Part shown: in pieces, positions 24,457-47,426 of the stretch | Layout of the letters: every line of letters begins with the position of its first letter | Numbering within the stretch: position 1 is the stretch's first letter | Assembly: GCF_000506985.1 (NCBI RefSeq) | Contig: NZ_KI650980.1 | Location: 124,001 to 188,000 of the forward strand | Direction of reading: 5' to 3' | Length of the DNA: 64,000 nucleotides | DNA from: Advenella kashmirensis W13003 | Lineage (GTDB): Bacteria > Pseudomonadota > Gammaproteobacteria > Burkholderiales > Burkholderiaceae_B | Program-made: the position numbers and the translations under genes | Notes under the pieces: model-generated | The model's input: the letters and a program-made list of their open reading frames with translations, nothing else | Databases searched by the model: none | Told to the model about the DNA's origin: nothing

Positions 24457-25440
24457 ATGAGCAAATTTTTATCAACATTGACAACGGCATTTTTACTGCT
24501 GGGTGTTTCGCTTTCTGTGCCAGCTCAGGCTGCGGATTACCCTGAAAAAGGCAAAACAATCATGTTGACGGTACCTTTCCCGCCTGGAGGCGCTTCAGAC
24601 GTCATAGGAAGACTGATTGCCCAAAAACTATCGGAAGCCTGGGGGGTTGATGCGGTCGTGGACAACCGAGCTGGCGGGGAAAGTATGGTTGGCGCATCCG
24701 TGGTGGCAAATAGCAAGAAGGATGGCTATCACATGGGGCTCTTCACGCTTGACTTTGTATTGAACCGAATTGTCCATGCCAAAAATCAGTCTTATGATGC
24801 AGCGAGGGATTTCACTCCGATCAGTCTGCTGGCCAAGTCTCCGTTGTATCTGGTTGTGAATGGCAAATCTGACATCAAAAATTTCGCAGATCTCAAGAAA
24901 CTCTCAATAGAAAAACCGGATGGCGTTTTCTACAGCTCTTGCTGCAGCGTGATGAATTTTTCGACCGAAATGTTAAAAAACGCCAGTGGCATCAAAGGCG
25001 AACATGTTCCCTACAAAGGAAGCTCTCCGTCAGTAAACGCTGTGGTCGCTGGAGAGACCACGTATGCAATCGATACGCCAGTATCCGTACAGAGTTACAT
25101 ACAGGCAGGCAGGCTAAAAGGATTGGCCGTCACGTCTCGCAAACGTGATCCAAGCTTTCCAGACATTCCAAATCTGAATGAGGTAGGAGTGCCTGGAGAT
25201 TTTGAGCTGGCGACTTGGTGGGGCATTTTGATGCCATCGGGCGTGCCGAACGACATCGTGCAAAAACTGAACGCGCAATTGCACAAGATTCTTGCACAGG
25301 ATGATGTGAAAAAGAAACTTGCAGAGTTCGGTGTACAAGTGGCTCCCACGAGCCCCGCTGATTTTGCAAAGCTAATGGAATCGGACTATCAGCGCTATCT
25401 ACAAGTGGCGAAAGACAATAACTTGTTGTTCTCAGAATAA
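24457..25440 (+). CDS. Bug/TctC-family periplasmic solute receptor, Cys-Cys loop type
   Basis: This 327-residue protein has a signal peptide ending at SVPAQAADYPEKG. Family marks are VPFPPGGASDVIGR, VVDNRAGGESMVGAS and KDGYHMG. The ligand loop is FYSSCCSVMNFSTEML, the Cys-Cys form shared with the Bugs at 9796 and 31325. A ribosome site AGGAGAG stands before ATG 24457. It heads an operon with two GMC oxidoreductases and a sulfatase. This context suggests it binds the anionic compound that the operon degrades; the ligand is unknown. Confidence 0.92.
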   Translation: MSKFLSTLTTAFLLLGVSLSVPAQAADYPEKGKTIMLTVPFPPGGASDVIGRLIAQKLSEAWGVDAVVDNRAGGESMVGASVVANSKKDGYHMGLFTLDFVLNRIVHAKNQSYDAARDFTPISLLAKSPLYLVVNGKSDIKNFADLKKLSIEKPDGVFYSSCCSVMNFSTEMLKNASGIKGEHVPYKGSSPSVNAVVAGETTYAIDTPVSVQSYIQAGRLKGLAVTSRKRDPSFPDIPNLNEVGVPGDFELATWWGILMPSGVPNDIVQKLNAQLHKILAQDDVKKKLAEFGVQVAPTSPADFAKLMESDYQRYLQVAKDNNLLFSE

Positions 25441-25474
25441 CAACTGAAACTTTGACCTGGAACGAAATTTAAAA

Positions 25475-27097
25475 ATGAGCACAACGAGTCAGTCCTTTGA
25501 CTATATCGTGATCGGTGCCGGTTCTGCCGGCGCTGTGGTCGCATCACGATTATCCGAAGATCCCAGCATCCGTGTCCTGCTGCTTGAAGCCGGACAGGCC
25601 GACACCAGCCCCTTTATCCATATTCCGCTGGGTGTTGGCAAACTGTTGGGAAAAAAAATAGCTATTTGGGACACCGAAACGGTCCCCCAAACAGATATGC
25701 ACGGAATCAAAGTTAATTGGCCAAGCGGTAAAGTATTGGGCGGGTCAAGCTCGGTCAACGGTATGTTGGCCGTTCGCGGACACCCTGCCCGCTACGACGA
25801 ATGGGACAGCGCCGGCTGCTCAGGGTGGTCTTATAAGGATGTGCTGCCGGCGTTTATGAAGCTCGAATCTTATGAGGCTGGCGACAAATTGGCTCATCGA
25901 GGCAACAGCGGTCCAATCACAATTGTGAAGTCGAAGCCCAACCCTCTGTCTCACGCGTTTGTTCAGGCTTGCGTGGAATACGGTATTCCTTTGACCGAAG
26001 ATTACAACGATGCGAAATCGGAAGGCGTCTCGCATATGCAAATGAATATGCGCAATGGAAAGCGCTGCAGCACGGGGGTGGCTTATTTGAAACCCGCATC
26101 GCATCGGAAAAATCTGACCATTGTGACTGGCGCGACCGTTTCAAGAATTGTATTTAGCAACAAAGTTGCGCTCGGAGTCGAATATTCGACAACGACCGGC
26201 AAGGTTATGACTGTCGACGCTAAGAAAGAGATCATCTTGAGTGCCGGCGCCACACGTTCACCCCAGATTCTGGAACTGTCCGGTGTCGGTAACGGCAAAC
26301 TGCTTCATGACCTCGGTATTCCAGTCGTAGTGGACAATCGTCATGTGGGCGAAAACCTTCAGGATCATTTGATGCCGCGGTTAAATTACCGTTGCAACAT
26401 GCCCTATACGGTGAACGATTTGCTTCGACAGAAACATCGTTTGTTGGGTGAGTTGGGCAAATATTTCATAAAAAAAGAGGGATTGTTCACCACCACTGGA
26501 ATAACGGGAACCGCGTTTGTCAGAACGCGCGATGGCTTGGGTTATCCGGATGCTCGCCTTCAGGTCGGTCTGACTAGCGGAACCCAGAGAACGGCAACAA
26601 GCATTAAAACAGGAATAGACAATTATTCTGGCTTTCATATCGGCGGCTATTTCCTGTACCCCGAGTCCAAAGGTCACATTCATATTGTTTCTCCAGATGT
26701 GAACGTCTCCCCGGCCATTGATCCAAGGTACCTCTCGGCTCAAGTTGACCAGGAAGTGATTGTCAACATTATGAAAATGCTGAGAAAGATTGCTGCTCAA
26801 CCTTCTTTATCTTCTGTCATTAGCGAGGCAACGCGTCCTCCATTAAGCCTTAATTCTGACGAGGACTTATTGGATTATGCGCGCAGAAACAGCAGCACAT
26901 GTTGGCATCCGGTGGGGACATGCCGAATGGGCGCCGAGCAGGAATCAGTAGTCGACAATCGAATGCGGGTATATGGGGTTACCGGACTGCGTGTCGTAGA
27001 CGCATCGGTCATGCCGTTTCAAATGTCAAGCAACACGAATATTCCTTCGATTATGCTGGGTGAACGGGCTGCCGAGTTTATACGTGCGGATGCGTGA
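25475..27097 (+). CDS. GMC-family oxidoreductase (choline dehydrogenase-like)
   Basis: This 540-residue flavoprotein has FAD motif YIVIGAGSAGAVVASRLSE near residue 10, GMC signature 1 GKVLGGSSSVNG, and signature 2 around SAGATRSPQILELSGVG. The active-site His is in CWHPVGTCRMG and Asn in SNTNIPSIM near the C-terminus. GMC enzymes oxidise primary alcohols to aldehydes, passing electrons to the respiratory chain or O2. It is second in the Bug-led operon and has a close paralogue immediately after it. Two alcohol oxidations, or two alcohols, may be handled. No signal peptide is evident. The substrate is not choline by necessity. Confidence 0.9.
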   Translation: MSTTSQSFDYIVIGAGSAGAVVASRLSEDPSIRVLLLEAGQADTSPFIHIPLGVGKLLGKKIAIWDTETVPQTDMHGIKVNWPSGKVLGGSSSVNGMLAVRGHPARYDEWDSAGCSGWSYKDVLPAFMKLESYEAGDKLAHRGNSGPITIVKSKPNPLSHAFVQACVEYGIPLTEDYNDAKSEGVSHMQMNMRNGKRCSTGVAYLKPASHRKNLTIVTGATVSRIVFSNKVALGVEYSTTTGKVMTVDAKKEIILSAGATRSPQILELSGVGNGKLLHDLGIPVVVDNRHVGENLQDHLMPRLNYRCNMPYTVNDLLRQKHRLLGELGKYFIKKEGLFTTTGITGTAFVRTRDGLGYPDARLQVGLTSGTQRTATSIKTGIDNYSGFHIGGYFLYPESKGHIHIVSPDVNVSPAIDPRYLSAQVDQEVIVNIMKMLRKIAAQPSLSSVISEATRPPLSLNSDEDLLDYARRNSSTCWHPVGTCRMGAEQESVVDNRMRVYGVTGLRVVDASVMPFQMSSNTNIPSIMLGERAAEFIRADA

Positions 27098-27165: not shown

Positions 27166-28779
27166 GTGGATGCTTATTTTGACTATATCGTAATAGGAGC
27201 GGGATCAGCCGGGTGCGTACTGGCCAACCGTCTTACAGAATCTGGTAAGCACTCGGTGTTATTACTGGAGGCTGGGCCAAAGGATACGTCCCCCTGGATT
27301 CACATACCGTTGGGTTATGGCAAAGCCGTATATGACGAACGTATCGCCCGGCAGTTTGAGGCGACCTCCAAAAATACGCTCGGCGAGCGCGTCATCATTT
27401 GGCCCAGAGGGGTTGTCCTGGGAGGTTCAAGTTCGATAAACGGTCAAATATTCATTAGAGGCCAGCCGCAAGATTACGATGAGTGGGCTGAGGCAGGCAA
27501 TACCGGCTGGGCCTGGCGTGACGTGCTGCCTTATTTCATTAAATCGGAACATAATACAAGAGGAGAAGGGCCGCTACACGGTACCGGCGGGCCCTTATGG
27601 GCCAGCCATATGACTGAACACAATCCGTTAATGGAAGCTATTTTTGACGCCGCTACCGAAATGGGTTTGCCGAGAAACGACGATTTTAACGGGGCCTCTC
27701 AAGAGGGAGCAGGCTATTATCAGTTTTTTGTTAAAAATGGCAGACGTTGCAGCGCTGCAGTCGCCTATTTGAAACCTGCGATGCGGCGGGCGAATCTGCA
27801 CGTGGAAACGGAGGCGCTGGCTGAGAAGATTCTCTTCAAGGACGCACAGGCCACAGGTATTCAGTATCGTCAGCACGGCAGGCTTAAGCACGCCTATGCA
27901 CATAAAGAAGTCATTGTTGCCGCTGGAGCACTGCAAAGTCCACACTTGCTGATGTTATCGGGAGTAGGCGACGAACAGCAATTGAGAAAACACGGCATTG
28001 TACCCGTTCACCATTTGCGCGGCGTGGGTAAGAATCTGCAGGATCATTTCAATGCGAAGCTTGTCTATCGTGTTTCCCGTCCGCTGACGCTCAATGACAG
28101 TTTATCAACACTTTCCGGAAAAATAGGCCTGGGCATGAACTATCTGCTCCGGCGCCAAGGGGCATTAGCATGGCCGGCCGCCACGGGAGGGCTGTTCGCT
28201 CGCGCGTTGCCGGACTCGCTACGGCCGGATATCCAGTGCCATTTCGGCTTGTTGTCCGCTGAGGGCAAGCGGTACATTCCTCATAAATTTTCCGGAGCCA
28301 CGCTTCAGGTCTGTCAACTTCGGCCCGAGTCGCGTGGCGAAATTACGCTTAAATCGAACAATCCAGCGGAGCCTCCGCTGATTGATGCGAACTATTTATC
28401 AACCGACCTGGATCGGCGATGCATGCTGGAGGGGTTAAAACTGACACGCCGGTTAGCGCAGCAAAAAGCCCTTCAAGAATACTTTACAGAAGAATATCAG
28501 CCCGGTAAGGACGTGATGAGCGATGATGATCTGCTCGATTATATCCGCGAGACGAGCGCCACAATTTTCCATCCTGCCGGAACATGCAAAATGGGGGAAG
28601 ATAAAGAGGCTGTCGTCAATGCAAGGTTGCAAGTACATGGAGTAGCAGGTTTGCGAATCGTGGATTGTTCCATCATGCCTACGCTTGTGTCGGGCAACAC
28701 AAATGCTCCTGTCATTATGATCGCTGAAAAAGCCAGTGAAATGATTCAAGCAGATGAAGGGAGCAGTGTTTTCGGTTGA
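27166..28779 (+). CDS. GMC-family oxidoreductase (alcohol dehydrogenase-like)
   Basis: This 537-residue GMC flavoprotein starts at GTG 27166; nearby ATGs are out of frame. It has YIVIGAGSAGCVLANRLTE at its N-terminus, GVVLGGSSSINGQIFIRG, AAGALQSPHLLMLSGVG, and active-site His in FHPAGTCKMG with Asn in GNTNAPVIM. It is 68 bases after the first GMC gene and 59 bases before the sulfatase gene. Its sequence is nearer to the third GMC enzyme at 37274 than to its neighbour, judging by shared motifs. It most likely oxidises the alcohol released by the sulfatase. The exact substrate is unknown. Confidence 0.9.
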   Translation: MDAYFDYIVIGAGSAGCVLANRLTESGKHSVLLLEAGPKDTSPWIHIPLGYGKAVYDERIARQFEATSKNTLGERVIIWPRGVVLGGSSSINGQIFIRGQPQDYDEWAEAGNTGWAWRDVLPYFIKSEHNTRGEGPLHGTGGPLWASHMTEHNPLMEAIFDAATEMGLPRNDDFNGASQEGAGYYQFFVKNGRRCSAAVAYLKPAMRRANLHVETEALAEKILFKDAQATGIQYRQHGRLKHAYAHKEVIVAAGALQSPHLLMLSGVGDEQQLRKHGIVPVHHLRGVGKNLQDHFNAKLVYRVSRPLTLNDSLSTLSGKIGLGMNYLLRRQGALAWPAATGGLFARALPDSLRPDIQCHFGLLSAEGKRYIPHKFSGATLQVCQLRPESRGEITLKSNNPAEPPLIDANYLSTDLDRRCMLEGLKLTRRLAQQKALQEYFTEEYQPGKDVMSDDDLLDYIRETSATIFHPAGTCKMGEDKEAVVNARLQVHGVAGLRIVDCSIMPTLVSGNTNAPVIMIAEKASEMIQADEGSSVFG

Positions 28780-28838
28780 TGGAACGGGCGAGCACAAGGT
28801 GAAAGCGTTTTATATTTACACGAAAATAGGATCATAAG

Positions 28839-31175
28839 ATGAGTCAGAGACGAAAACTACCGCTTGAAGAAGAAGCATTTGACGGAAAAATTGGTGAGAC
28901 AGCGAAAGAGTCTGTTCAGAGCTTCCCGCAGGTTGTCGCGCCTCCCAAAGGGGCACCCAATATTGTGCTCGTGCTTCTGGACGATGTTGGCTTCGGTCAA
29001 CCGAGTACATTTGGCGGACCAGTGGAGATGCCAACGTTGGATCGTCTGGCTGGTAACGGTTTGCGATACAACCGCTTTCATACCACGGCAATGTGTACGC
29101 CGACCCGCGCTGCATTGCTCACGGGGCGGAATCACCATAGTGTGGGCAACGGTTCCATTACCAATCTGGCAACGGGGTTTCCCGGATACAATTCCATTTG
29201 GCCACGCAACGCGGCCTGCATAGCAGAGGTCCTTCGGGCTAACGGTTATGGCACGTCAGCGTTTGGAAAATGGCATAACACACCGGAATGGGAAACAAGT
29301 CCTGCGGGTCCATTTGATCGATGGCCAACGGGACTGGGGTTTGATTATTTTTATGGGTTCTTGGGCGCTGATGCGAACCAGTGGGATCCCGTGCTGGTGG
29401 AAAATACGAGGCCCGTTAGCAGACCCGCCGACGATCCCCCGATGCATTTGGATGAAGACCTGGCTAATAAGGCGATTTCGTGGATCCGTCTACAGCGGTC
29501 CGTGACACCCGACAGGCCATTTTTTCTTTATCTTGCTCCGGGCACAGCTCATTCGCCGCTACATGCGCCAAAAGAATGGATTGACAAATATCGTGGCTGC
29601 TTCGATCACGGCTGGGATGAAGAGCGTCGTCGTACCTACGCGCGTCAGCTTGAGATGGGTATTATTCCTCATAACACAAAGTTGACCCCTCGCCCGGCCG
29701 AGATACCGGCCTGGGAGGACGGTTCTGAAGCGGAAAAGAGGTTGGGTGCGCGCCAAATGGAAGCGTTTGCAGGCGCTTTATCGCATTGCGATTATCAGAT
29801 CGGCAGGGTGATTGATGAGCTGAATGTGCAGGGTATTGCTGATGACACATTGGTAATATTTATTGCTGGCGATAATGGTCCCAGTGCCGAAGGCACTCTG
29901 ATTGGCCAAGTGAATAAGTGGAGTAATTTGAACGGAATGCCCGAGACGCTGGAAGAGCAGTTAGCCAGAATCGACGACATCGGGGGACCGAAGAGCTATA
30001 ACAGCTATCCGGTAGGCTGGGCATGGGCTGGATCGTCGCCTCTGCAGTGGGTCAAGCAGATTGCTTCGCATCTGGGTGGGACACGTAATGGCATGGTCAT
30101 GTCCTGGCCAAATGGGATTCTTGATCATGGTAAGCTGCGAGAACAATTCCATCATTGCATTGATATTGTCCCCACGTTGCTGGACGTAGCCGGAATCCCG
30201 ATGCCGGAAGAGGTGAATGGAGTATCCCAGTGTGATGTGGAGGGGCTTTCCATGACTTACACATTTCAGGAGTCCGAAGTCAAATCTCAACGCACGACGC
30301 AATACTTCGAATTGCTGGGACATCGGGCTATTTTTCACGATGGCTGGATTGCGACCGCGCGTCACCAAGGACGCCTGCCGTGGCAGATCGGCGGAGGCAA
30401 TGCGACCGGCGATTTCGACTCAGACACATGGGAACTCTACAATATAGAGAACGATTTCTCACAGGCAAACGATCTTGCTCAGCAATTTCCGGAAAAACTA
30501 AAAGAGCTTCAGGCACTTTGGCGAAAGGAGGCGGTTAAGCACAAGGTCTTCCCGCTGGATGATCGCTATGGTGAGCGATATCATCAAGGCCCGTCTCCGG
30601 CTCGCAATCGGACGCACTTTACCTATGCCTCAGGCGTATTCGGTATTCCGGAAGGTAGCGCCCCGAATGTAAAGGGCCGTTCGCACAAGATCACGGCCGA
30701 CGTCGTTATTCAAGATGCGACAGAAGGCGCCATAGTGGCAGCAGGCGGTCGCTTCGGTGGTTATGCTCTGTACATCCAGAATCAGCGTCTGCATTATGTT
30801 TATAACGTTTCCGGGCTGGAGCGGCATCGGGTCAGTTCGGATCACGCGTTACCCGCCGGAGAGCATTGCCTGATAATGATATTTGAATCCGAACGTACGA
30901 CTCCAGGTTCTGGCGGCGAGGTGATACTCCAGGTTGACGGACAGGAAGTAGGCCGGGGGAAAATTCCACGGACGGTACCAATCCAATATTCCTATACCGA
31001 AACATTTGACATCGGCAGGGACAATGGAACGCCTGTGGATGAAGCGTATCGTTCTCCGTTCGTATTCAATAGCGTTATACGTTCTGTGGTCATTGAAATA
31101 TTGACCCCGCTGAGCGACAAAGAATGCGCGGTCGAAAATCAGGCTCAGATGCGCGCCAGATATGAGAACGAATAG
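28839..31175 (+). CDS. AtsA-like type I sulfatase, Cys-type
   Basis: This 778-residue protein is of the size and layout of mycobacterial AtsA-type arylsulfatases. PNIVLVLLDDVGFG near residues 40-53 holds two metal Asp residues. The sulfatase signature is CTPTR with Cys86 (AMCTPTRAALLTGR), which must be converted to formylglycine. Downstream FGKWHNTPEW and AGDNGPS carry further catalytic and metal-binding residues. The C-terminal third has a beta-rich domain, including FGGYALYIQNQRLHYVYN. No signal peptide is seen, so it is probably cytoplasmic. A formylglycine-generating enzyme lies two genes on at 32326. It hydrolyses a sulfate ester; aryl or alkyl specificity is unknown. Confidence 0.93.
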   Translation: MSQRRKLPLEEEAFDGKIGETAKESVQSFPQVVAPPKGAPNIVLVLLDDVGFGQPSTFGGPVEMPTLDRLAGNGLRYNRFHTTAMCTPTRAALLTGRNHHSVGNGSITNLATGFPGYNSIWPRNAACIAEVLRANGYGTSAFGKWHNTPEWETSPAGPFDRWPTGLGFDYFYGFLGADANQWDPVLVENTRPVSRPADDPPMHLDEDLANKAISWIRLQRSVTPDRPFFLYLAPGTAHSPLHAPKEWIDKYRGCFDHGWDEERRRTYARQLEMGIIPHNTKLTPRPAEIPAWEDGSEAEKRLGARQMEAFAGALSHCDYQIGRVIDELNVQGIADDTLVIFIAGDNGPSAEGTLIGQVNKWSNLNGMPETLEEQLARIDDIGGPKSYNSYPVGWAWAGSSPLQWVKQIASHLGGTRNGMVMSWPNGILDHGKLREQFHHCIDIVPTLLDVAGIPMPEEVNGVSQCDVEGLSMTYTFQESEVKSQRTTQYFELLGHRAIFHDGWIATARHQGRLPWQIGGGNATGDFDSDTWELYNIENDFSQANDLAQQFPEKLKELQALWRKEAVKHKVFPLDDRYGERYHQGPSPARNRTHFTYASGVFGIPEGSAPNVKGRSHKITADVVIQDATEGAIVAAGGRFGGYALYIQNQRLHYVYNVSGLERHRVSSDHALPAGEHCLIMIFESERTTPGSGGEVILQVDGQEVGRGKIPRTVPIQYSYTETFDIGRDNGTPVDEAYRSPFVFNSVIRSVVIEILTPLSDKECAVENQAQMRARYENE

Positions 31176-31324
31176 TCGGTGCGGGGCAGGACGGTTCGAT
31201 TGTAAGTGGTTCTATTGACATGTCATGCCCGTACCAGGGCGCTTGGACTCCAAGACCCGAACAAAGCGTAGACAACATGGATTGAGGTGAAACGGCTGTC
31301 TATTCATAATAATGGAGGAGAGAA

Positions 31325-32311: not shown

Positions 32312-32325
32312 CGCTGGAGACGTCT

Positions 32326-33270: not shown

Positions 33271-33412
33271 AGGGCAGTTGCGATCACTAAATTTTGGTGT
33301 GTACGCACGCGTTCCGGCTGTCGCCAGCTCCAATAATGAAGCATCCTGTTTTTGCCTATTTAACCGCAGCTCATGGTTGACAATAAGCTGCCCATCTTCC
33401 ATAATCCGTTTA

Positions 33413-33426
33413 TTGTATTAATACAA
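33413..33426. promoter_or_regulatory. 14-base palindrome, probable GntR operator before aconitase X genes
   Basis: TTGTATTAATACAA is a perfect palindrome 140 bases ahead of ATG 33567, in the gap after the FGE gene. The half-sequence TTAATACAA recurs exactly at 35430-35438, just before the GntR gene itself. HutC-type GntR regulators are known to use TTGTAT...ATACAA sites. The assignment to the GntR at 35452 is inference. Confidence 0.6.
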
Positions 33427-33566
33427 CCCAATACAACACAATTCATTGCATGATGAATGTCGCCTCTTGTTTTCTTTGGAAACTGTCTTTTAGTACCGTT
33501 TCAATGGCGAAATCGGGATCGATATCTCTTCACGCAAAAACCTTGGATCAGAAAGGGAGATAGCGC

Positions 33567-38878: not shown

Positions 38879-38941
38879 TTTGCGGGTGATTTTATTCGGG
38901 CAATCGTAATCAATATAAAAATCTTAAATCGGGAGACAAAT

Positions 38942-40309
38942 ATGCAATCTGACAAAAAGGCGCTGCGTAGAGTAGCAATGGCCAGCGTGATCGGGGCCAC
39001 CATAGAGTGGTACGATTTTTTCCTGTACGGAATCGTTGCGGGAATCGTTTTCAATAAATTGTATTTTCCGGCGGGCGACCCCACGATCAACACGCTACTT
39101 GCGTACGCCACTTTTGCCGTAGGCTTTGCAGCAAGGCCTATTGGTGGCATTGTTTTCGGCCATTTCGGTGACAGAGTTGGAAGAAAGAGCATGCTGATCA
39201 TTACGCTTGTCATCATGGGTCTGTCGACATTTGCGATGGGGGTCATACCGACTTTTGAGCAAATCGGGTATTGGGCACCGGCACTGTTGATTTTATGCCG
39301 GGTAGTCCAGGGTATCGGCCTGGGTGGCGAGTGGGGAGGAGCGATTCTGATGGCCTACGAGTTTGCGCCGACATCCAAACGTGGCTTCTATGCCAGTCTG
39401 CCGCAAGTTGGACTTTCGCTCGGCGTATTATTGTCCGCTGGCTATTTGGGTCTGATGTCGGCAATACTTACTGATGAACAATTTATGCTCTGGGGATGGA
39501 GGGTAGGGTTCATTGTATCCTGTGGCTTGGTTTTTTTCGGCTTGTGGATTCGTTTGAAAATAGTTGAAACTCCCGATTTTTCCAAGGTCAAGGAAAAAAA
39601 TAAGGAAGCTGCCATTCCGTTCTTCGACATGATTAAGCGCTATCCGCGCAATACGTTATTGGGGCTGGGCGCAAGACATATCGATGGTGTATTTTTCAAT
39701 ATTTTCAGTGTCTTTTCCATCAACTATCTGACACAGACGCTGCACTTTCCGCGCGATACATCTTTAATCGGCGTCATGATCGGCGCTGTCACGCTGACCG
39801 TCTTCATTCCCGTCTTTGGGCATCTTTCCGACAAATTGGGTCGCATTCGTCTATATGGTTGGGCCTCACTGATCACCGCAGCCAGCTGTTTTCCGGCATT
39901 CTGGCTTATGCAAAGTGCAAACGGGAATATCTATCTAGTATGGCTGGCAATTGCTGTACCGTTTGGAGTGATTTACGCTGCAGTGTATGGGACCGTTTCT
40001 TCCTTTCTTTGCGATTTATATGATGCCAGGGTCAGGTACACCGGTATCTCGTTTGTGTATCAATTTTCAAGTGTAACGGCTGGCGGGCTCACGCCCATCA
40101 TTGCGACGATGCTGCTTGCGACAGGCAACGGCGATCCTATTTATATTTGTGCCTATGTACTTGCAAGCGGGATTCTTTCGGCGTTATGCACCTACCTTAT
40201 CGGTCGCGGAGATAAAGCGACACCTAGTCCCGAAGCGTTCAGTTCGGAGCCGGGTCAATATCGAATCCCGCAAGCAGACTCAACCCGCATTACGAATCCG
40301 ACTTTATAA
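38942..40309 (+). CDS. MFS transporter, metabolite:H+ symporter (MHS) type
   Basis: This 455-residue integral membrane protein with about 12 hydrophobic segments has the MHS subfamily N-terminus, ASVIGATIEWYDFFLYG, with core GATIEWYDFFLY, and FGHFGDRVGRKSMLI as motif A. CRVVQGIGLGGEWGGA is also characteristic. MHS members import dicarboxylates, betaines, proline or aromatic acids with protons. It is 63 bases after the GMC gene and 14 bases before the decarboxylase genes, so it likely imports the compound they process. Unlike the Bugs, it is a complete transporter. The exact substrate is unknown. Confidence 0.92.
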   Translation: MQSDKKALRRVAMASVIGATIEWYDFFLYGIVAGIVFNKLYFPAGDPTINTLLAYATFAVGFAARPIGGIVFGHFGDRVGRKSMLIITLVIMGLSTFAMGVIPTFEQIGYWAPALLILCRVVQGIGLGGEWGGAILMAYEFAPTSKRGFYASLPQVGLSLGVLLSAGYLGLMSAILTDEQFMLWGWRVGFIVSCGLVFFGLWIRLKIVETPDFSKVKEKNKEAAIPFFDMIKRYPRNTLLGLGARHIDGVFFNIFSVFSINYLTQTLHFPRDTSLIGVMIGAVTLTVFIPVFGHLSDKLGRIRLYGWASLITAASCFPAFWLMQSANGNIYLVWLAIAVPFGVIYAAVYGTVSSFLCDLYDARVRYTGISFVYQFSSVTAGGLTPIIATMLLATGNGDPIYICAYVLASGILSALCTYLIGRGDKATPSPEAFSSEPGQYRIPQADSTRITNPTL

Positions 40310-40323
40310 AGGAGAAGGTATAC

Positions 40324-40860
40324 ATGCACAGTCTCGACTCTAGATACTCAGTTGGCGCCACCCAATTCATTAGAACATTCAGGGAAAACAATATTCAGTT
40401 TGTGACAACCGTACCGGATATGCTGCAAATTGCTTTGCATCAGGAACTCGAGAACCCGATACATGAGATCAGAAGCATCAATTGTACGACTGAAGATCAG
40501 GCGATAGAAACGGCAGCAGGGATTTATGCCGGTGGCAAACGGTGTGCGGTGCTGATCCAGAATCAGGGTTTTTACGCCGCCATAAATAGCATTCGAGCAC
40601 TGGGACTGGATGGACATATCCCCCTTTTACTTGTGATCGGACAATTCGGAAGAGAGTTTGCCAATCTGGGGCATGATCCTCGCCTGTCGAATCGTTTGAT
40701 GGTCAGAATGCTCGAACCTGTCCTTGAAACGCTGGGCATCCCTTACCAACGCCTGGAGAGTGAGAATGATACAAACAATATTGATATCGCCTGCAAAACC
40801 GCGTTTGAACGTAATGGACCCTCGGCACTGCTCGTCGGCCATTTCGTCTCTTTCAGTTGA
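40324..40860 (+). CDS. sulfopyruvate decarboxylase-like, alpha (N-terminal) subunit
   Basis: This 178-residue protein is the pyrimidine-binding half of a split thiamine-diphosphate decarboxylase. It reads FVTTVPDMLQIALHQEL, CTTEDQAIETAAGIYAGGK (Glu57 in TTEDQ is the likely activating Glu), and LIQNQGFYAAINSI. Homologues include the alpha subunits of sulfopyruvate decarboxylase (ComD) and of phosphonopyruvate-type enzymes. GGAGAA precedes ATG 40324. It needs the partner encoded at 40903. Sulfopyruvate is converted to sulfoacetaldehyde in known members; whether that holds here is unproven, but the sulfatase-rich locus makes it attractive. Confidence 0.82.
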   Translation: MHSLDSRYSVGATQFIRTFRENNIQFVTTVPDMLQIALHQELENPIHEIRSINCTTEDQAIETAAGIYAGGKRCAVLIQNQGFYAAINSIRALGLDGHIPLLLVIGQFGREFANLGHDPRLSNRLMVRMLEPVLETLGIPYQRLESENDTNNIDIACKTAFERNGPSALLVGHFVSFS

Positions 40861-40902
40861 ACCCAGCCTGGACTATTTACACTCGACTTAGGAATCCATG
40901 AA

Positions 40903-41505
40903 ATGACAATGACCGCTGAACAAGTCGTCTCCATTACAGAATCTTTGCGCGTCGATGCTGTCGTCGTGTTCACGATGGGGGCCATGAACGAGTACGATCG
41001 ACTACCTGCCAATGATCTGAACGTTGCTTGCGTGCCGTTGATGGGCGGCGCTGCGTCTTTGGGGCTGGGTATTGCTTTAGCCTGCCCGGACCGCAAAGTG
41101 GTCGTCCTGGATGGCGATGCGAGTCTGCTGATGGAACTGGGCGGATTGGTATCGGTCGCCACGGCAGCACCCCAAAATCTTATTCACATCGTATTGAATA
41201 ATGGCGTTCAGTTTGCAGGCTTGGGCAATCTTCGCACACCGGGTGCTGCAAGCGTTGATTTTGAGGCAATGGCTAATGCAGCTCGCTACCACAGCACAGT
41301 GCGATGTTCGACGGCCGAGACATTCTCGCAAGAATTGAAAAATAAGTGGAAGCGACCCGGTCCGCATTTTATTGAAGCGATAACAGAGTATGGAGAAGCG
41401 ACACTCGGTCGGAAGATTCATTCACTTGAAATGACCGATCACCGATTCAGCAGAATGGGAGAAGAGCTTAGGAGAATTCGGAAATTTATGGTGAATGAAA
41501 TTTAA
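40903..41505 (+). CDS. sulfopyruvate decarboxylase-like, beta (C-terminal) subunit
   Basis: This 200-residue protein is the diphosphate-binding half of the split enzyme. It reads VPLMGGAASLGLGIALACPD, VVVLDGDASLLMELGGLVS and HIVLNNGVQFAGLGN, quoted as cores. The usual GDG of the thiamine-diphosphate motif is GDA here; some related enzymes use GDA too, so activity is not excluded. It follows the alpha subunit by 42 bases and ends the GMC-MFS-decarboxylase group, which converges with the DUF202 pair at 41514. The reaction is probably removal of CO2 from a small anionic 2-oxoacid. Confidence 0.82.
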   Translation: MTMTAEQVVSITESLRVDAVVVFTMGAMNEYDRLPANDLNVACVPLMGGAASLGLGIALACPDRKVVVLDGDASLLMELGGLVSVATAAPQNLIHIVLNNGVQFAGLGNLRTPGAASVDFEAMANAARYHSTVRCSTAETFSQELKNKWKRPGPHFIEAITEYGEATLGRKIHSLEMTDHRFSRMGEELRRIRKFMVNEI

Positions 41506-41513
41506 AACCAGTA

Positions 41514-41843
41514 TCAAATCACACTAAAACGATTGACGATTATAAAGAGAATATTGCTCATGGCGGCGGCCAGTCCGATCAGCGTCACGCTTCTGATTGA
41601 GGCAATGGGCAAAGGGATTGGAAATAGATTGAGCGCCAGCCCTTTGGCTCGAAAGACGCCATATACGAATGTGATAATAGTGGCTATTAACAGTATGCCG
41701 GTTAAAATGGCAAGAAAAATCGATGCGTTCATGTAAGCCGAACGCATGGTGACAAATCCATTCAGCAGCAATACAGCGGAGGTACGTCGCCATGCCAGGG
41801 ACGTACGTTCTGGCTGCAGGCCGGGGTCTTTAAGTGTCGCCAT
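41514..41843 (-). CDS. DUF202 inner-membrane protein
   Basis: This 109-residue protein begins DPGLQPERTSLAWRRTSAVLLLN, with the DUF202 core ERTSLAWRRT, and has three hydrophobic segments spanning roughly residues 22-40, 45-65 and 80-103. Such proteins are small membrane proteins of unknown function, often in tandem pairs as here. It starts 9 bases after the stop of the DUF202 gene at 41853. It converges with the decarboxylase operon, so it is probably unrelated to that pathway. Confidence 0.85.
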   Translation of the reverse strand: MATLKDPGLQPERTSLAWRRTSAVLLLNGFVTMRSAYMNASIFLAILTGILLIATIITFVYGVFRAKGLALNLFPIPLPIASIRSVTLIGLAAAMSNILFIIVNRFSVI

Positions 41844-41852
41844 TATTTACAC

Positions 41853-42212
41853 TCAAAGGAATGACTTTATTAGCAGGATGACCAAAACCAGAGCCGTCCC
41901 CATTCCACCCAGAGCAAGCAGACCCAAAGCAGGGGATCGGGGCAGCGTTCGTTTCAGTCGCATCGCTAATTCGACATCTCGCCAATGAATATATGCAACG
42001 ATAAACAATACACCTGCTAACACGCATAAACCAAGTGCAATTGCGAAAATAATGACCGGAGAAGCTAAGTTATGCGCGAATTGGTCCAGTAGCACGCCAG
42101 CTGCCAATATTGCCAAAGCGGTACGGACCCACGCCAGGAATGTGCGCTCATTAGCAAGTGTGAATCGGTAGTCGGGCTCTTCACCCATTTCGCGCCAATT
42201 TGAGTTTTTCAT
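41853..42212 (-). CDS. DUF202 (YidH-like) inner-membrane protein
   Basis: This 119-residue protein reads FTLANERTFLAWVRTALAILAAGVLLD, with core NERTFLAWVRTALA, and has three hydrophobic segments typical of YidH. It is the first of a two-gene operon with 41514-41843. Function is unknown in the family; a membrane role is all that can be said. Its promoter region faces the candidate small RNA at 42354. Confidence 0.88.
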   Translation of the reverse strand: MKNSNWREMGEEPDYRFTLANERTFLAWVRTALAILAAGVLLDQFAHNLASPVIIFAIALGLCVLAGVLFIVAYIHWRDVELAMRLKRTLPRSPALGLLALGGMGTALVLVILLIKSFL

Positions 42213-42318
42213 TGTAAGTTACGTCTTAGAAAATATGAATGAAAGTGCTAGTTCAAAGTAGGATTTCGTGATTGCTTAGTAAAAGGTCGGTTAGCACTTA
42301 GTGGTTCTCCTGAAACTA

Positions 42319-42347
42319 TTGACTTATTGAAATTAAGTCGGTATCTT
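42319..42347 (+). promoter_or_regulatory. sigma-70-like promoter of a candidate small RNA
   Basis: TTGACT (42319-42324) and TATCTT (42342-42347) are separated by exactly 17 bases on the plus strand. No plus-strand protein gene follows before the terminator at 42453-42474. Transcription would start near 42354. Confidence 0.45.
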
Positions 42348-42353
42348 AGCCGC

Positions 42354-42474
42354 ACTAGCTAACAGAATTCTTAATCGCTGTTAGCTGATTCCATCACTCA
42401 TTGGGTTGCATTTTAGTCTTGGGCTAATCCTTTTTCTGCAATCCAATTTTTTGCGGCTACGGCCGCTTTTTTTT
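42354..42474 (+). ncRNA. candidate structured small RNA, about 120 nt
   Basis: Downstream of a plus-strand promoter (42319-42347) lie three hairpins. AGCTAACAG (42357-42365) pairs perfectly with CTGTTAGCT (42378-42386). ATTGGGTTGCA (42400-42410) pairs with TGCAATCCAAT (42437-42447) with one G-U pair. GCGGC (42453-42457) pairs with GCCGC (42462-42466), followed by eight T residues, making an intrinsic terminator. All adjacent genes are on the minus strand, so this plus-strand terminator serves no known gene. No long open frame is present. I recognise no known RNA family. It could instead be an antisense leader or a chance arrangement. Confidence 0.5.
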
Positions 42475-42534
42475 GAATGACGAAATTAACTCTATAGTCC
42501 TAGTAGTCATCAATCCATATCTAAACCTTTGACG

Positions 42535-43737
42535 TTAATCTGTTAAATAACCCGAGATGTCGAATTTTGGGGAATAGATAAATGCTCGGAGAGCGAGCGA
42601 AACAGCCGCTTCTTCGTATGTCATTTTTGAAGACAAGATTGGAATTGCTGAATTTTCTGAAAATGATTTTCGCACACCCATCGAATAACTCTCCGATCGA
42701 CCAAGCTGGCCGGCTAAAAAAATAATCTCTGGATCGGATACAGTGGTTAACGATTTTAGTGCTTTCCCTAGATGCTGACCTGCTGCGAATAAAATCTGAA
42801 TAGCATTATCATTTCCTGTTTTGGCAAGGGCAATGGCCTCTTCAAGCAACTTAGCGTGTTCAACCTGATGCCTTGGTTTACGTCGATCTCGGGAGATCAC
42901 ATTGAGTTGCTCCAAGATAGCGTGACCCGAAGCGAGTGTGTCGAGACAACCAATTTTTCCACATGTGCAGACTAGTGTGCTTTCGCTCATCGTCAAATGA
43001 CCGATTTGGCCCGCGCGATAGCTTTGTCCCCGCAGAATTCGGCCATCAGTCATGATTGCGCCACCTATACCTAGAGTGGGCAGAATCAGTGCTGCATTAT
43101 CGATTTTTTGGTTTTTCAACGAATATTTTTCTGCTAGTAAAAGCGCGATCGGACGACTTTCAATTTTGGCCGGTATATTCAGTACCGTTTCAATCATCGA
43201 CGCTAGCGGAACTGTGGGCCAGCCGAGATTGGGTGACTCAAGAAGCATACCTTCATTCGTATCCACCGGCCCCGCGACGGAAACCCCAACACCAGCCAGC
43301 CTCGGAAGAGGGATCTCGGAGGCTTGAATTAATTTTTTGATTTCGTTAGCGGCACAGGTGACGACTGTAATTGGATTGGCGACATCCTTCAAAGATAGGC
43401 TGTGCTTGGCGATCAATTCGCCTTTTAGATTAGCGATGCAAACCCATTGACTGTCAGCGCTCAAGTTTATTGCTGCGACATAGGCTCCGTCACCGCGTAA
43501 GCGTAGGCCAATGACTGGGCGACCGCGCCGTGAGGGCGCCGGATCACTTTCAACCTCTTCAATAATTTGGGCGTCAACAAGTTCCCGTGTTATGCGGGAC
43601 ACTGCAGGCTCGGTCAAGTTGCATAATCTGGCAATTTCATTCCTTGCTAAATCGGGTGTTCTTTGCAGCATTTCAAGTATTCGACATCGATTTTCCTTGC
43701 GAATATCTTGTGTCGAGGTAACCGGTATCTCTTTCAT
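42535..43737 (-). CDS. ROK-family transcriptional regulator
   Basis: This 400-residue protein has an N-terminal winged helix (RCRILEMLQRTPDLARNEIARLCNLTEPAVSRITREL, core LTEPAVSRITREL) fused to a ROK sugar-kinase-like domain. The zinc motif is CTCGKIGCLDTLASG, and glycine-rich AGVGVSVAGPVDT and LGIGGAIMTDGRIL resemble nucleotide and sugar contacts. ROK repressors commonly sense sugars or sugar phosphates. It is divergent from the Bug and choline-sulfatase-like genes at 43899 and 44885, which it most likely controls. A sugar or polyol inducer would suggest a sulfated sugar-like substrate; this is inference. Confidence 0.9.
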   Translation of the reverse strand: MKEIPVTSTQDIRKENRCRILEMLQRTPDLARNEIARLCNLTEPAVSRITRELVDAQIIEEVESDPAPSRRGRPVIGLRLRGDGAYVAAINLSADSQWVCIANLKGELIAKHSLSLKDVANPITVVTCAANEIKKLIQASEIPLPRLAGVGVSVAGPVDTNEGMLLESPNLGWPTVPLASMIETVLNIPAKIESRPIALLLAEKYSLKNQKIDNAALILPTLGIGGAIMTDGRILRGQSYRAGQIGHLTMSESTLVCTCGKIGCLDTLASGHAILEQLNVISRDRRKPRHQVEHAKLLEEAIALAKTGNDNAIQILFAAGQHLGKALKSLTTVSDPEIIFLAGQLGRSESYSMGVRKSFSENSAIPILSSKMTYEEAAVSLALRAFIYSPKFDISGYLTD

Positions 43738-43898
43738 TTTAATGGATAACCCTTATTTACTTGTTGTCGGTAAGTATATCATTATATATTAAATTGCCGT
43801 CTGTAATTTATTAATAATCGAAGATGAAATGGCAAAAAAATGTCGCTGTTCTAAAGGTAGAGTCAGCGGATCAGGAGGATAAAAAGGGAGCTGCGTAT

Positions 43899-44867
43899 AT
43901 GTTTAAAAAATCAGTTGTTTATGTTATATCGTGTATCGCTTTGATATGCGGAACTAGTGCCTATGGACAGGAAGAATGGCCTGCACAACCGATTACATTG
44001 ATCGTGCCATGGCCAGCGGGTGGCGTGGCCGATTTTGTCGGGCGGCTCGTTGCGCAGAAAATTTCGGCGCCACTCAAGCAGACTGTCGTAGTCGAAAACA
44101 AACCTGGTGCGGGAACAAATATTGGTATTTCAACTGTTGCTCATGCCAAAAAAGATGGATATACATTGCTGTTAGCCAGCAGTAACAATGTGGTTAACAA
44201 ATTTCTGTTTAAGGATCTTTCCGTTGATCCGGTAAAAGAGTTCCGACCCGTTTCGTTGTTGGTTAATGTTCCGAATATATTGGTGGTCAATCCGAAGATC
44301 CCAAGTAAATCAGTGACCGAGATCATCAATTATGCAAAAAAGCATCCTAATGAACTGACTTATGCTTCCGCTGGGAACGGTAGTCCTGCGCATATGGCGG
44401 CAGAGTTGTTCAAGTCGCTAGCCGATGTAGAAATCCTGAATGTACCGTATAAAGGTGCATCACCTGCGGTCAGTGACGTTATGGGAGGCCGAGTATCAAT
44501 GATGTTTACCAATATCCCAGCTTCGTTGGGAGCAATTCAGTCTGGCCGGTTATTGGCGCTCGGAATTGGTAGCAAGGAACGTTCTCCAGCATTGCCTGAT
44601 GTGCCTACGGTTGATGAGGCTGGGTTGTCGGGATACGAGGCAAGTGCATGGTATGGTTTGATGGCGCCGGTCGGCACGCCCAACCAGGTGATCGAAAAGA
44701 TTCAGCGTGCGCTGGATGCTGTTCGTACGACAGAATCACTGGACACTCTCCGGCAAAGGGGAACCGAGCCGCTCATTTCTACTCCGCAGGAGATGGATGT
44801 ACAAATAGACAAAGATATGAAAACCTATGGCGATCTCATCAAGCGCATTGGGGTTACGATTCAATAG
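43899..44867 (+). CDS. Bug/TctC-family periplasmic solute receptor
   Basis: From ATG 43899 (GGGAG 8 bases ahead) the protein is 322 residues with a signal peptide, FKKSVVYVISCIALICGTSAYGQ, whose core is the hydrophobic VVYVISCIALICG. A frame from 43824 adds 25 residues and would bury the signal, so it is rejected. Family marks are VPWPAGGVADFVGR, VVVENKPGAGTNIG and KKDGYTLLLA. The loop is the ordinary YASAGNGSPAHMAAE, unlike the Cys-Cys Bugs. It is 17 bases before the choline-sulfatase-like gene and divergent from the ROK regulator. Confidence 0.92.
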   Translation: MFKKSVVYVISCIALICGTSAYGQEEWPAQPITLIVPWPAGGVADFVGRLVAQKISAPLKQTVVVENKPGAGTNIGISTVAHAKKDGYTLLLASSNNVVNKFLFKDLSVDPVKEFRPVSLLVNVPNILVVNPKIPSKSVTEIINYAKKHPNELTYASAGNGSPAHMAAELFKSLADVEILNVPYKGASPAVSDVMGGRVSMMFTNIPASLGAIQSGRLLALGIGSKERSPALPDVPTVDEAGLSGYEASAWYGLMAPVGTPNQVIEKIQRALDAVRTTESLDTLRQRGTEPLISTPQEMDVQIDKDMKTYGDLIKRIGVTIQ

Positions 44868-44884
44868 GCGAGGCAGGAATCAAC

Positions 44885-46438
44885 ATGAAGCGACCAAATA
44901 TTATTCTGATCATGGCAGACCAGCTCACTGTGTCTGCACTGGCAAATTATGGCAATACTATTGTCAATGCGCCGCATATCAACTCATTGAGTGAAAAAGG
45001 TGTCACCTTTGATAATGCTTATTGCAACTTCCCGATATGCGCGCCGTCGCGATACTCGATGCTGACAGGCAGATTACCGCATTCAATCCAGGCATATGAT
45101 AATGCGAGTGAGCTTACTGCAGATCAGCCTACGCTGATGCATTACTTGAGAAAGTTGGGCTATAGCACTACCTTGAGTGGCAAAATGCATTTCGTAGGTC
45201 CCGATCAGCTGCATGGTTATTCCGAGAGATTAAATACGGACATTTACCCGGCGGACTTCGCCTGGGTTCCAAACTGGAAAGAAGGGCCTCGAAATGCGCC
45301 GACAGGCATCAGTATGCGCGCTGTAGTAGAAGCAGGCTCCTGCTTGCGGAGCCTGCAATTGGATTATGATGAGCAAACGGCGTTTTTGACGAAGCAAAAA
45401 ATATATGATCTCGCAAGGAATTCGCGTGGTCAGCCTTTTTTTGTGACGGTTTCGTTTTCTCACCCCCATTCCCCATACACCGCATATCAGGACCATTGGG
45501 ATCGGTACAGACACGAAGACATCGACATGCCGCAAGTTCCGCCGATTCCGCTTGAGTCTCTAGATACGCATAGCAAATGGCTTTATTATTCGCATGGACG
45601 AGATCGGATTTCGGTAACAGAAGAGCATGTTCGGAATGCTCGCCATGCTTATTACGGAATGGTGAGTTATGTCGATGATAAAGTCGGCGAAATCATCGCG
45701 TTATTAAAACACACCGAGTTGTTGGAAGACTCTATCATCATTTTTACAAGCGACCATGGTGAAATGCTTGGCGAGCGCGGGATGTGGTTTAAACAGACAT
45801 TTTTCGAAAGCGCTTCCCGCGTTCCGCTTATTATTAGCGGACCAGGTATAGCCGGAGCCCGCCGTGTTCAATCGAATGTGTCGCTTGTGGACTTGATGCC
45901 TACCATATTGGCGTTGGCAAATGATGGCGAAGCAACGCACACGACACCCATTGACGGTTGTAATCTGACAGAGTTGTTCGATGAAAAAGAGGTAGATAAT
46001 AATAGGGTTGTGCTGTCTGAATATAGCGACATGGGCGTATGTGCTCCCTGCCGCATGATCAGACAAGGCAAGTACAAGTATGTTTATGTGCATGGGCACG
46101 AATCGTTATTGTTTAATCTCGAAAACGACCCTCTTGAATTGCATGATTTGAGCAGTGATACGACGCATCAGGAGATAAAGGCAAAGTTGCACTCAGCAGT
46201 ATTGACTAATTGGGACCCCGAAGGGTTGAATCAGTTGATATTGGATAGTCAGGCCAGGCGTGAAGTCATCTGGTCGGTCGTCAAGGGAAGTTCCCATAGA
46301 GAGAATTGGTCATATGTCGTTTCCAAGGGAGATGAGCAGAAGTATGTAAGAGGAGGTGGCGATAACGAAGGGACTATTGCGGTGAAAGGACGAGCTAGAT
46401 TTCCATATGTAGAACCGGCCAAGCTTAAATCTTTCTAG
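44885..46438 (+). CDS. choline-sulfatase-like type I sulfatase, Cys-type
   Basis: This 517-residue protein (ATG 44885, AGGCAGGA ahead) has RPNIILIMADQLTVSAL at the N-terminus and the sulfatase signature CAPSR with Cys52 (ICAPSRYSMLTGRLPHS). SGKMHFVGPDQLHGY and ERLNTDIYPADFAWVP are hallmarks shared with choline sulfatase BetC. TSDHGEMLGERGMW holds later metal-site residues. It hydrolyses a small sulfate ester, probably in the cytoplasm. It is unlikely to be housekeeping BetC with betAB, which are absent. The FGE at 32326 can mature it. It forms an operon with the Bug at 43899. Confidence 0.9.
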   Translation: MKRPNIILIMADQLTVSALANYGNTIVNAPHINSLSEKGVTFDNAYCNFPICAPSRYSMLTGRLPHSIQAYDNASELTADQPTLMHYLRKLGYSTTLSGKMHFVGPDQLHGYSERLNTDIYPADFAWVPNWKEGPRNAPTGISMRAVVEAGSCLRSLQLDYDEQTAFLTKQKIYDLARNSRGQPFFVTVSFSHPHSPYTAYQDHWDRYRHEDIDMPQVPPIPLESLDTHSKWLYYSHGRDRISVTEEHVRNARHAYYGMVSYVDDKVGEIIALLKHTELLEDSIIIFTSDHGEMLGERGMWFKQTFFESASRVPLIISGPGIAGARRVQSNVSLVDLMPTILALANDGEATHTTPIDGCNLTELFDEKEVDNNRVVLSEYSDMGVCAPCRMIRQGKYKYVYVHGHESLLFNLENDPLELHDLSSDTTHQEIKAKLHSAVLTNWDPEGLNQLILDSQARREVIWSVVKGSSHRENWSYVVSKGDEQKYVRGGGDNEGTIAVKGRARFPYVEPAKLKSF

Positions 46439-47398: not shown

Positions 47399-47426
47399 TA
47401 AGTATTTGATATCACTATATTTTTAA

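Follow-up and report, generated by a model that had tools for sequence, protein, structure and literature searches.

Sulfate esters make up a large pool of the sulfur in soils, and to our knowledge few bacterial routes have been described in which the carbon of such esters is used as well. One described system to which a sulfatase locus can be compared is the choline-sulfate operon, in which the sulfatase BetC stands together with BetA and BetB and which is, we assume, regulated by BetI. The other points of comparison are single enzymes: the arylsulfatase of structure entry 1hdh, which we take to be that of Pseudomonas aeruginosa, the 3-methylglutaconyl-CoA decarboxylase AibA/AibB, glutaconate CoA-transferase, the archaeal mevalonate-5-phosphate dehydratase, and the sulfopyruvate and phosphonopyruvate decarboxylases. 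Here we describe a locus of Advenella kashmirensis W13003 that resembles each of these in part. It lies in a stretch of 64,000 nucleotides (contig NZ_KI650980.1, positions 124,001 to 188,000; hereafter the window, whose own numbering is used throughout) and occupies approximately 9.8–46.4 kb of it. On balance, we favor the view that this island is an accessory, multi-operon catabolic block of about 30 genes by which an aliphatic sulfate ester would be used as a source of both sulfur and carbon. A described system with this gene set was not found by title or start of abstract among open-licence PubMed Central papers, a collection outside which most subscription journals lie, and the accessible part of an Advenella paper (PMC5373536) makes no mention of a sulfatase.

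An earlier note on this DNA (the original prediction) had placed a possible organosulfate-utilisation locus between 24457 and 46438, and the protein families that it named are found where it put them: two CxPxR sulfatases (28839 and 44885; PF00884, with CTPTR and CAPSR, respectively), a true formylglycine-generating enzyme (FGE) with both catalytic cysteines (32326), three GMC oxidoreductases (25475, 27166, and 37274, by Pfam), Bug/TctC receptors (24457, 31325, and 43824; PF03401), an MHS transporter (38942), a split thiamine-diphosphate (TPP) enzyme (40324 and 40903), and the large and swivel subunits of aconitase X (AcnX; 33567 and 34799). The first sulfatase, SulfA (28839–31175, plus strand), is of type I (formylglycine) and matches PF00884 with 215 bits (cut-off 25); its CTPTR motif is kept in five of five SulfA sequences, that of the window included. 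Its closest solved relative is 1hdh (216 bits over residues 39–564), also a type I sulfatase, from which SulfA differs by some 210 extra C-terminal residues and by its location in a carbon-catabolic island. The sulfatase-maturing, SUMF1-like FGE (32326–33270, plus strand) matches PF03781 with 270.8 bits (cut-off 23.3). Its motif, GGSFLCAPSYC in the window and GGSFLCAPxYC in five of five sequences, fits what we take to be the two-catalytic-cysteine pattern of these enzymes, GGS..C....C. It is the sole PF03781 match in the whole 4.85 Mb genome, which holds eight PF00884 matches, seven of them with the CxPxR motif. No signal peptide is evident on SulfA, on the second sulfatase or on FGE when their N-termini are read by eye, so that desulfation is probably cytoplasmic. 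A plasmid origin of SulfA was considered and rejected, since none of its best matches among 429 plasmid records reaches 60% identity.

Conserved linkage in related genomes had been set beforehand as a test of the proposal. A scan of named genomes, which needed short conserved peptides and may have missed remoter islands, gave 37 loci with SulfA relatives; four of these are at 67% identity or above, and the rest at 53% or below. The four orthologs belong to Cupriavidus sp. 2SB (77%), Paraburkholderia piptadeniae (72%), Caballeronia calidae (72%), and Candidimonas nitroreducens (67%), and FGE is 62–70% identical in the same four islands. We then compared 31 island proteins with regions of 96, 80, 70, and 60 kb of these genomes, requiring at least 40% identity over at least 80% coverage and using each target once. 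One-to-one matches were obtained for 27 proteins in Cupriavidus, 22 in Paraburkholderia, 24 in Caballeronia, and 12 in Candidimonas, and for none of the controls, 22 proteins encoded in the window beyond the block; when queries may share targets, the counts are 29, 23, 24, and 15. Near SulfA in all four relatives are FGE, the GMC enzyme GMC2, a family III CoA-transferase (CoAT3), a crotonase-fold enzyme, both subunits of a Gct-fold pair, an acyl-CoA ligase, an IclR regulator and an aldehyde dehydrogenase (ALDH), and FGE, a GMC enzyme and the genes of coenzyme A (CoA) metabolism (the CoA block) stand within about 20 kb of SulfA in every one of them. The linkage foreseen for the block is therefore seen in related genomes. 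The combination is also rare. In samples of the order, which are draws of 399 or 359 genomes and not the whole order, SulfA at 67% identity or above occurs in 1 of 398 other genomes, and so does the C-terminal half of the TPP enzyme at 54% or above; both hits are in Cupriavidus, on the same contig. In the family sample, Candidimonas is the only one among 267 other genomes with SulfA at 67% or above, and nine same-genus genomes gave no SulfA match at E 1e-120. Identities differ between the modules: SulfA is closest to Cupriavidus (77%, against 72%) and AcnX to Paraburkholderia and Caballeronia (84%, against 76%), a mosaic which suggests that the modules lack one shared history.

The four relatives also place the start of the block elsewhere than the original prediction had done. 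Rather than beginning at 24457, the functional unit reaches down to about 9.8–10.9 kb, and the carbon steps common to all four relatives are those of the CoA block (10953–18880), which lay outside the earlier coordinates. All its genes are on the minus strand. ALDH (10953–12386; PF00171, 522 bits; 47–65% in the four islands), predicted to convert an aldehyde to an acid, resembles succinate-semialdehyde dehydrogenase and falls under the equivalog cut-offs among the 25 models shown. It is followed by the AMP-forming acyl-CoA ligase (13130–14605; PF00501; 49–52%), by subunits B (14619–15353; PF01144; 79–82%) and A (15353–16183; PF01144; 69–71%) of the Gct/Aib/Ipd-fold pair, by the crotonase-fold enzyme of the enoyl-CoA hydratase family (16197–16922; PF00378; 44–50%), by CoAT3 (16919–18082; PF02515, 422 bits; 67–72%), and by the IclR regulator that probably controls the block (18110–18880; PF01614; 53–59%), each of them matched in four of four islands. 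The closest solved structure to CoAT3 is a succinate--hydroxymethylglutarate CoA-transferase (9br7, 300 bits).

The closest solved relatives of the A/B pair are AibA/AibB and glutaconate CoA-transferase, with IpdAB behind them: B is nearest to AibB, and A scores 102 bits with AibA, 92 with GctA, and 80 with IpdA. The names Aib and Ipd are those that we presume for these structure entries, which the database calls CoA-transferase subunits. For Aib, the entry codes given in PMC7756340 confirm the name. According to the accessible part of that paper, Cys56 of AibB stands where transferases have their catalytic glutamate, and its replacement by valine does not abolish activity. In subunit B, valine occupies this position in five of five sequences, including that of the window (the position being located through AibB, with no direct GctB alignment displayed), and a serine is aligned with Glu72, the second acid of AibB. 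The pair thus departs from the class I (Gct-type) CoA-transferases, since the catalytic glutamate is replaced, and from the residue pattern of the AibAB decarboxylase at both positions, of which the first is reported to tolerate valine. Because valine is found at the catalytic position in all five sequences, transferase chemistry by the A/B pair is unlikely; it may instead be a decarboxylase or a hydrolase.

At the other end of the core, three genes precede SulfA with spacings of 34–68 bp: the receptor Bug1 (24457–25440, plus strand; PF03401; 66% in Cupriavidus) and two GMC oxidoreductases (both PF00732/PF05199). GMC1 (25475–27097, plus strand) has a 65% counterpart beside SulfA in Candidimonas, while its matches of 41–43% in the other three islands are other GMC genes; GMC2 (27166–28779, plus strand), a predicted alcohol dehydrogenase, is found at 55–60% in all four. 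Another receptor, Bug2 (31325–32311, plus strand; PF03401), lies between SulfA and FGE and has a 68% counterpart beside SulfA in Cupriavidus. Scans of positions 27500–47400 gave 24 promoters (23.6 expected) and 25 terminators (20.5 expected), both near chance, so that operon borders are drawn from gene spacing only.

Taken together, these genes allow a core pathway to be proposed. Bug receptors and the MHS symporter would import an anionic ester, and SulfA, matured by the adjacent FGE, would remove its sulfate inside the cell; family and motifs of both proteins are seen, and the ester as substrate is what we infer. The alcohol so released may then be oxidized by GMC enzymes to an aldehyde, and this by ALDH to an acid, from which the ligase and the family III CoA-transferase would form a CoA ester, to be shortened by the crotonase and by the Gct-fold pair, probably not a transferase. 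Because the core genes accompany SulfA in all four relatives, this succession (a sulfatase that frees an alcohol, GMC and ALDH enzymes that oxidize it, CoA enzymes that degrade the product) is the simplest reading, and we consider a core pathway for an aliphatic sulfate ester, serving as sulfur and carbon source, somewhat likelier true than false. The part of the original prediction that had a sulfate ester or sulfonate imported and its carbon degraded is accordingly upheld as far as the linkage of sulfatase, FGE, GMC, and CoA enzymes goes; its naming of the TPP pair after sulfopyruvate decarboxylase is not (see below), and a single substrate shared by the whole block would go beyond this linkage. 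The side modules, most of them with a regulator of their own, probably deal with related esters or with products of degradation. They would comprise the second sulfatase, of choline-sulfatase descent, together with an AcnX dehydratase and a GMC enzyme with a split TPP enzyme for the decarboxylation of a 2-oxo acid.

The second sulfatase (44885–46438, plus strand; PF00884, 181 bits, scanned on the longer open reading frame from 44648) is BetC-like, of type I, and carries CAPSR. Both sulfatases had been ascribed to one block; the second does lie in it, in a unit of its own with a ROK-family regulator and a receptor, and it is not a plain choline sulfatase. It is 66% identical in Cupriavidus and 72% in Caballeronia and has no match in the regions read of Paraburkholderia and Candidimonas; the Cupriavidus ortholog (L054:1618–3243) has CASSR, and that of Caballeronia CAPSR as in the window. 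Use of choline-O-sulfate, with this enzyme as BetC and the GMC enzymes as choline dehydrogenases, would account for several features. The protein passes the choline-sulfatase model TIGR03417 (573.6, cut-off 433.45), its closest solved structure is the Sinorhizobium meliloti choline sulfatase 6fny (399 bits), and GMC2 and GMC3 (605.7 and 636.4) just pass PRK02106, the broad choline dehydrogenase subfamily (cut-off 605), which GMC1 fails (521.8). The decisive residue, however, is another one. The accessible part of van Loo et al. (PMC5870055) reports that Glu386 recognizes the ammonium group, that over 80 choline sulfatases have it without exception, and that the exchange Glu386Leu costs 5.1 kcal/mol on choline sulfate and leaves aryl activity virtually unchanged. 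An ungapped alignment (EYAAEASYAP in 6fny, EYSDMGVCAP in the window; chain numbering taken as offset by 3) puts methionine at this site, and the same holds for three of three sequences, the window and both orthologs. The three GMC enzymes fail the BetA model TIGR01810 (GMC1 435.7, GMC2 494.6, GMC3 541.5; cut-off 732.1), none of the nine matches to this equivalog in the genome passes (best 541.1), and the island ALDH scores 402 against the 668.6 needed for betaine-aldehyde dehydrogenase, other ALDHs of the genome being outside this comparison. Choline sulfate was hence rejected as the substrate, on the methionine and on the lack of a BetA over the cut-off, and we regard this explanation of the locus as very improbable. 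Most likely, the second enzyme would be an alkyl sulfatase whose alcohol is uncharged or carries a different charge.

The unit of the second sulfatase resembles the choline-sulfate operon in joining a BetC-type sulfatase to a solute receptor, with a GMC gene adjoining as well in the islands of Caballeronia and Cupriavidus; it differs from it by the methionine, by the missing BetA, and by the ROK regulator, which stands where BetI presumably acts in that operon. The ROK gene (42535–43737, minus strand; PF00480 with a helix-turn-helix) is matched in Caballeronia only (55%), where it is divergent from GMC-Bug-sulfatase, an arrangement that again pairs a sulfatase with a GMC enzyme. Bug3 (43824–44867, plus strand; PF03401, 231 bits) has a 63% match immediately before the sulfatase in Caballeronia. 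Two small open reading frames, one of them DUF202, lie between the TPP genes and the ROK gene (41514–42212); a DUF202 protein is also found near SulfA in Cupriavidus, and the DUF202 matches fell below the 40%/80% cut.

AcnX was correctly listed as a member of the block, as one with a wider distribution than SulfA: at 70% identity or above it occurs in 12 of 358 other order genomes. Its large subunit (33567–34802, plus strand; PF04412, 387 bits), of type II, is 76–84% identical in three of the four islands, with only 36% in Candidimonas, and its small, swivel subunit (34799–35290, plus strand; PF01989) 66–78% in three of the four. The nearest solved enzyme is the archaeal mevalonate-5-phosphate dehydratase (7cnr; 200 bits, the hydroxyproline enzyme reaching 108), with which it shares the two-subunit type II architecture. 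Lys361 of the archaeal enzyme is kept; Glu129, Ser130, and Tyr365 are Asp, Thr, and Ile, so that the island protein fails the residue test for a mevalonate-5-phosphate dehydratase (AcnX IIb), with the same stretches in four of four sequences. Against the model of the one-chain form it scores 184.4 (cut-off 700), a low value that is due in part to its split form. Bacterial AcnX types IIc–IIf lack the landmark residues and are uncharacterized, according to the accessible part of Watanabe et al. (2021; PMC8184944).

A GntR/UTRA regulator (35440–36258, plus strand; PF00392/PF07702) travels with AcnX: the order GntR-Bug-AcnX is seen in Cupriavidus and at the four loci of other family members that are closest by AcnX (L034–L037; 74–76%), where 20 kb of sequence gave no sulfatase match. 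AcnX was found in none of the six same-genus genomes listed. We considered AcnX as an unlinked passenger of the island; that idea is weakened by its presence in three of the four SulfA genomes, in two of them on the same contig, 42 and 50 kb away. In the third, Caballeronia, the AcnX contig ends with the TPP N-terminal half and the SulfA contig begins with the C-terminal half, and the two are joined by this inference only. Three genes that we read, from their Pfam domains, as GlcD/GlcE/GlcF-like stand near AcnX in Cupriavidus (L111:11663–15718) and Caballeronia (L117:8522–12369); they are absent among the window proteins scanned. Such neighbors suggest an oxidation of hydroxy acids.

Downstream of the GntR gene follows what appears to be a further module. 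An IclR regulator (36331–37092, plus strand; PF01614; 43–47% in three islands) probably controls it, and it comprises GMC3 (37274–38878, plus strand; PF00732/PF05199; 64–66% in three islands, 52% and paralogous in Candidimonas), the MHS-type metabolite/H+ symporter (38942–40309, plus strand; PF07690, hence MFS by Pfam; 65–67% in three islands), which scores 413.5 bits against TIGR00883 (cut-off 443.45), and the two halves of the TPP enzyme (N-terminal, 40324–40860, plus strand, with 26.1 bits just under the Pfam cut-off of 26.8, 61–63% in three islands; C-terminal, 40903–41505, plus strand, 55–56% in three islands). The pair had been called sulfopyruvate-decarboxylase-like. It does belong to the same group of split or fused TPP enzymes as the sulfopyruvate and phosphonopyruvate decarboxylases, and the likeness ends there: it fails ComD/ComE (67.8 against 147.95 for TIGR03845; 88.5 against 221.5 for TIGR03846) and phosphonopyruvate decarboxylase (TIGR03297; N half 52.2, C half 101.8, cut-off 312.5), thus reaching 17–46% of the cut-offs of the three models. 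A sulfonate route via sulfopyruvate was rejected on these scores, and so was the full-length TPP enzyme at 8110–9756 as an Xsc (256 against 676); the latter has no island match at 40%/80% (27% in Cupriavidus; 44% over 18% of its length in Candidimonas). TPP-pair homologs of 47–49% in three other genomes of the order have a GMC gene in their vicinity, directly adjoining in L133 (twice, 4916–7646 and 13691–16452) and L135 (7971–10693) and about 5 kb away in L134; besides these three, whose surroundings were read, there is a fourth homolog of 40%. The pairing of GMC and TPP genes is thus a recurring module that is not tied to SulfA.

The last two modules raise the question of whether one pathway or two are encoded. 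AcnX, the GlcDEF-like genes of two relatives, the TPP pair, GMC3, and the MHS symporter may form an independent pathway for 2-hydroxy or 2-oxo acids, next to the core sulfate-ester pathway of SulfA, FGE, GMC1/2, ALDH, and the CoA block. To this we give nearly even chances. Candidimonas, with its 12 one-to-one matches, holds essentially the core only, AcnX has GlcDEF-like genes around it in Cupriavidus and Caballeronia, though none were found at L034–L037, and the TPP pair has GMC company in the three further genomes just described. Set against this is the fact that the TPP and AcnX modules accompany SulfA in three of its four genomes, on one contig in two and with the Caballeronia contigs joined by inference. 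Such a division would be a refinement of the core sulfate-ester pathway and is compatible with it.

As regards the borders of the island, the conserved block ends at 46.4 kb on the right and begins at about 9.8 or 10.9 kb on the left, depending on whether Bug0 is counted (9796–10782, minus strand; PF03401, 155 bits). This receptor at the left edge is common to the Cupriavidus (57%) and Candidimonas (59%) regions only, and in Cupriavidus it shares its matching gene with Bug2, so that it drops from the one-to-one count there. At the 40% identity cut, none of eight upstream genes tested, nor the TPP enzyme at 8110, nor any of 13 genes tested from 48.8 kb on has a match in the four islands. In 40-kb stretches of three of the nine same-genus genomes, shared DNA starts at 47.3 kb, in the surroundings of a tRNA-Pro gene (47427), and nothing to the left of 47.3 kb matches; for this reason the island is probably accessory and bordered by tRNA genes on the right. 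Genes for tRNA-Pro, tRNA-Leu, and tRNA-Ser lie at 47262–48616, and this region may be an insertion hotspot.

Several observations weigh against the sulfate-ester pathway as the common purpose of the block. With the identity cut lowered to 35%, 1, 0, 0, and 1 of the 22 controls match (a Bug receptor), and a CoA-transferase paralog among the controls scores 34–39% in all four regions. These regions were picked for SulfA or AcnX, and the counts therefore describe a neighborhood and not independent events. The single FGE of the genome may serve all seven CxPxR proteins and would thus not be dedicated to SulfA. No TctA/TctB membrane partner is found among the window proteins scanned. The block contains five regulators (LysR, two IclR, GntR, and ROK), of which the original prediction had left out the GntR, IclR, and ROK ones, and their number suggests independent induction and not one switch. 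Finally, the parts occur without the sulfatase. AcnX also occurs without a close SulfA, the TPP-GMC homologs of the three other order genomes have no SulfA match in the stretch fetched, and the CoA block stands without SulfA, in the stretches read, as a second copy in the genome itself and in two related family genomes (47–81%). Subunit B at 80% or above is found in 3 of 398 other order genomes, two of them with no SulfA match, besides the genome's own second copy. As the CoA block recurs without SulfA, it looks as if the core had arisen by adding a front end for sulfate esters to a block that degrades acids in general.

The second copy lies on contig 1 at about 846.6–853.5 kb (L127:8634–15499) and comprises Bug, IclR, CoAT3, crotonase, A, B, and ligase genes at 70–91% identity, with no SulfA match nearby. 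The receptor Bug00 (19060–20025, plus strand; PF03401; 51%, in the Cupriavidus island only) adjoins the CoA block there too (81%), as well as at L129 and L130 (55–56%). In another family of the order (L132:8228–13884 and L131:7741–13281), the A/B pair, CoAT3, and crotonase are arranged differently and together with a cysteine-dioxygenase-like cupin; the cupin is also present in three islands.

The same observations can be explained by a catabolic hotspot, in which several unrelated modules for small acids and sulfate esters would have gathered in a variable region and lie together through shared transfer, without forming one pathway. Besides the occurrence of the CoA block, AcnX, and TPP-GMC modules without SulfA and the separate regulators, this explanation is favored by the gene order, which is shuffled among the four islands, and by the variability of the region within the genus, as seen in the lack of SulfA, AcnX, and matching DNA noted above. 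On the other side, only one genome of the order sample carries SulfA or the TPP C half, both rare, at the identities given, and it has the two together, three further genera share 22–27 of the 31 proteins one-to-one, and Candidimonas keeps SulfA and the CoA block on one strand (window-matched genes from ligase to IclR, contig 213.0–231.5 kb) without AcnX, the TPP pair or the second sulfatase in the 60 kb read. A mere hotspot is therefore doubtful, and we retain the core sulfate-ester pathway as the preferred reading.

A bolder form of this reading would unite all modules in one undescribed pathway for a branched or hydroxylated aliphatic sulfate ester. The ester would be imported, desulfated by two differently specialized sulfatases, and oxidized by the GMC enzymes; dehydration by an AcnX that has none of the landmark residues of known function, decarboxylation by a new split TPP enzyme, and cleavage of a CoA ester by a Gct-fold enzyme without transferase chemistry would follow. 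We think this rather unlikely. Solved relatives act on hydroxymethylglutarate (CoAT3), 3-methylglutaconyl-CoA (A/B pair), and mevalonate phosphate (AcnX), which by analogy gives a hint of a 3-methyl-branched C5–C6 carbon skeleton.

Four further genes lie between Bug00 and Bug1. An FAD/NAD(P)-binding protein (20045–21595, plus strand; PF13454) is 42% identical in Cupriavidus, 40% in Paraburkholderia, and 39% in Caballeronia, the last being excluded by the 40% cut. A GNAT acetyltransferase (21662–22228, plus strand; PF00583; 57–67%), a LysR regulator (22248–23138, minus strand; PF03466; 43–45%), and a TauD-fold dioxygenase (23135–24178, minus strand; PF02668; 60–64%) are each found in three of the four islands. 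The closest solved relative of the dioxygenase is FrbJ (5eqn, 115 bits), with TmpA, a phosphonate hydroxylase, further down. To the left of the island, at 1767–6632, a separate cluster holds TetR, a family III CoA-transferase, a Bug receptor, a crotonase, and LysR, which the islands match at 25–39% only.

The locus provides a well-delimited set of genes that recurs in named isolates. It contains four enzymes without an assigned reaction (AcnX, the BetC-like sulfatase, the Gct-fold pair, and the split TPP enzyme), and the context that they share narrows the search for what they do. For the CoA block, its second copy in the genome constitutes a natural control of function. For the sulfatase family, the locus indicates that the curated choline-sulfatase model accepts proteins which lack the residue that specifies choline.

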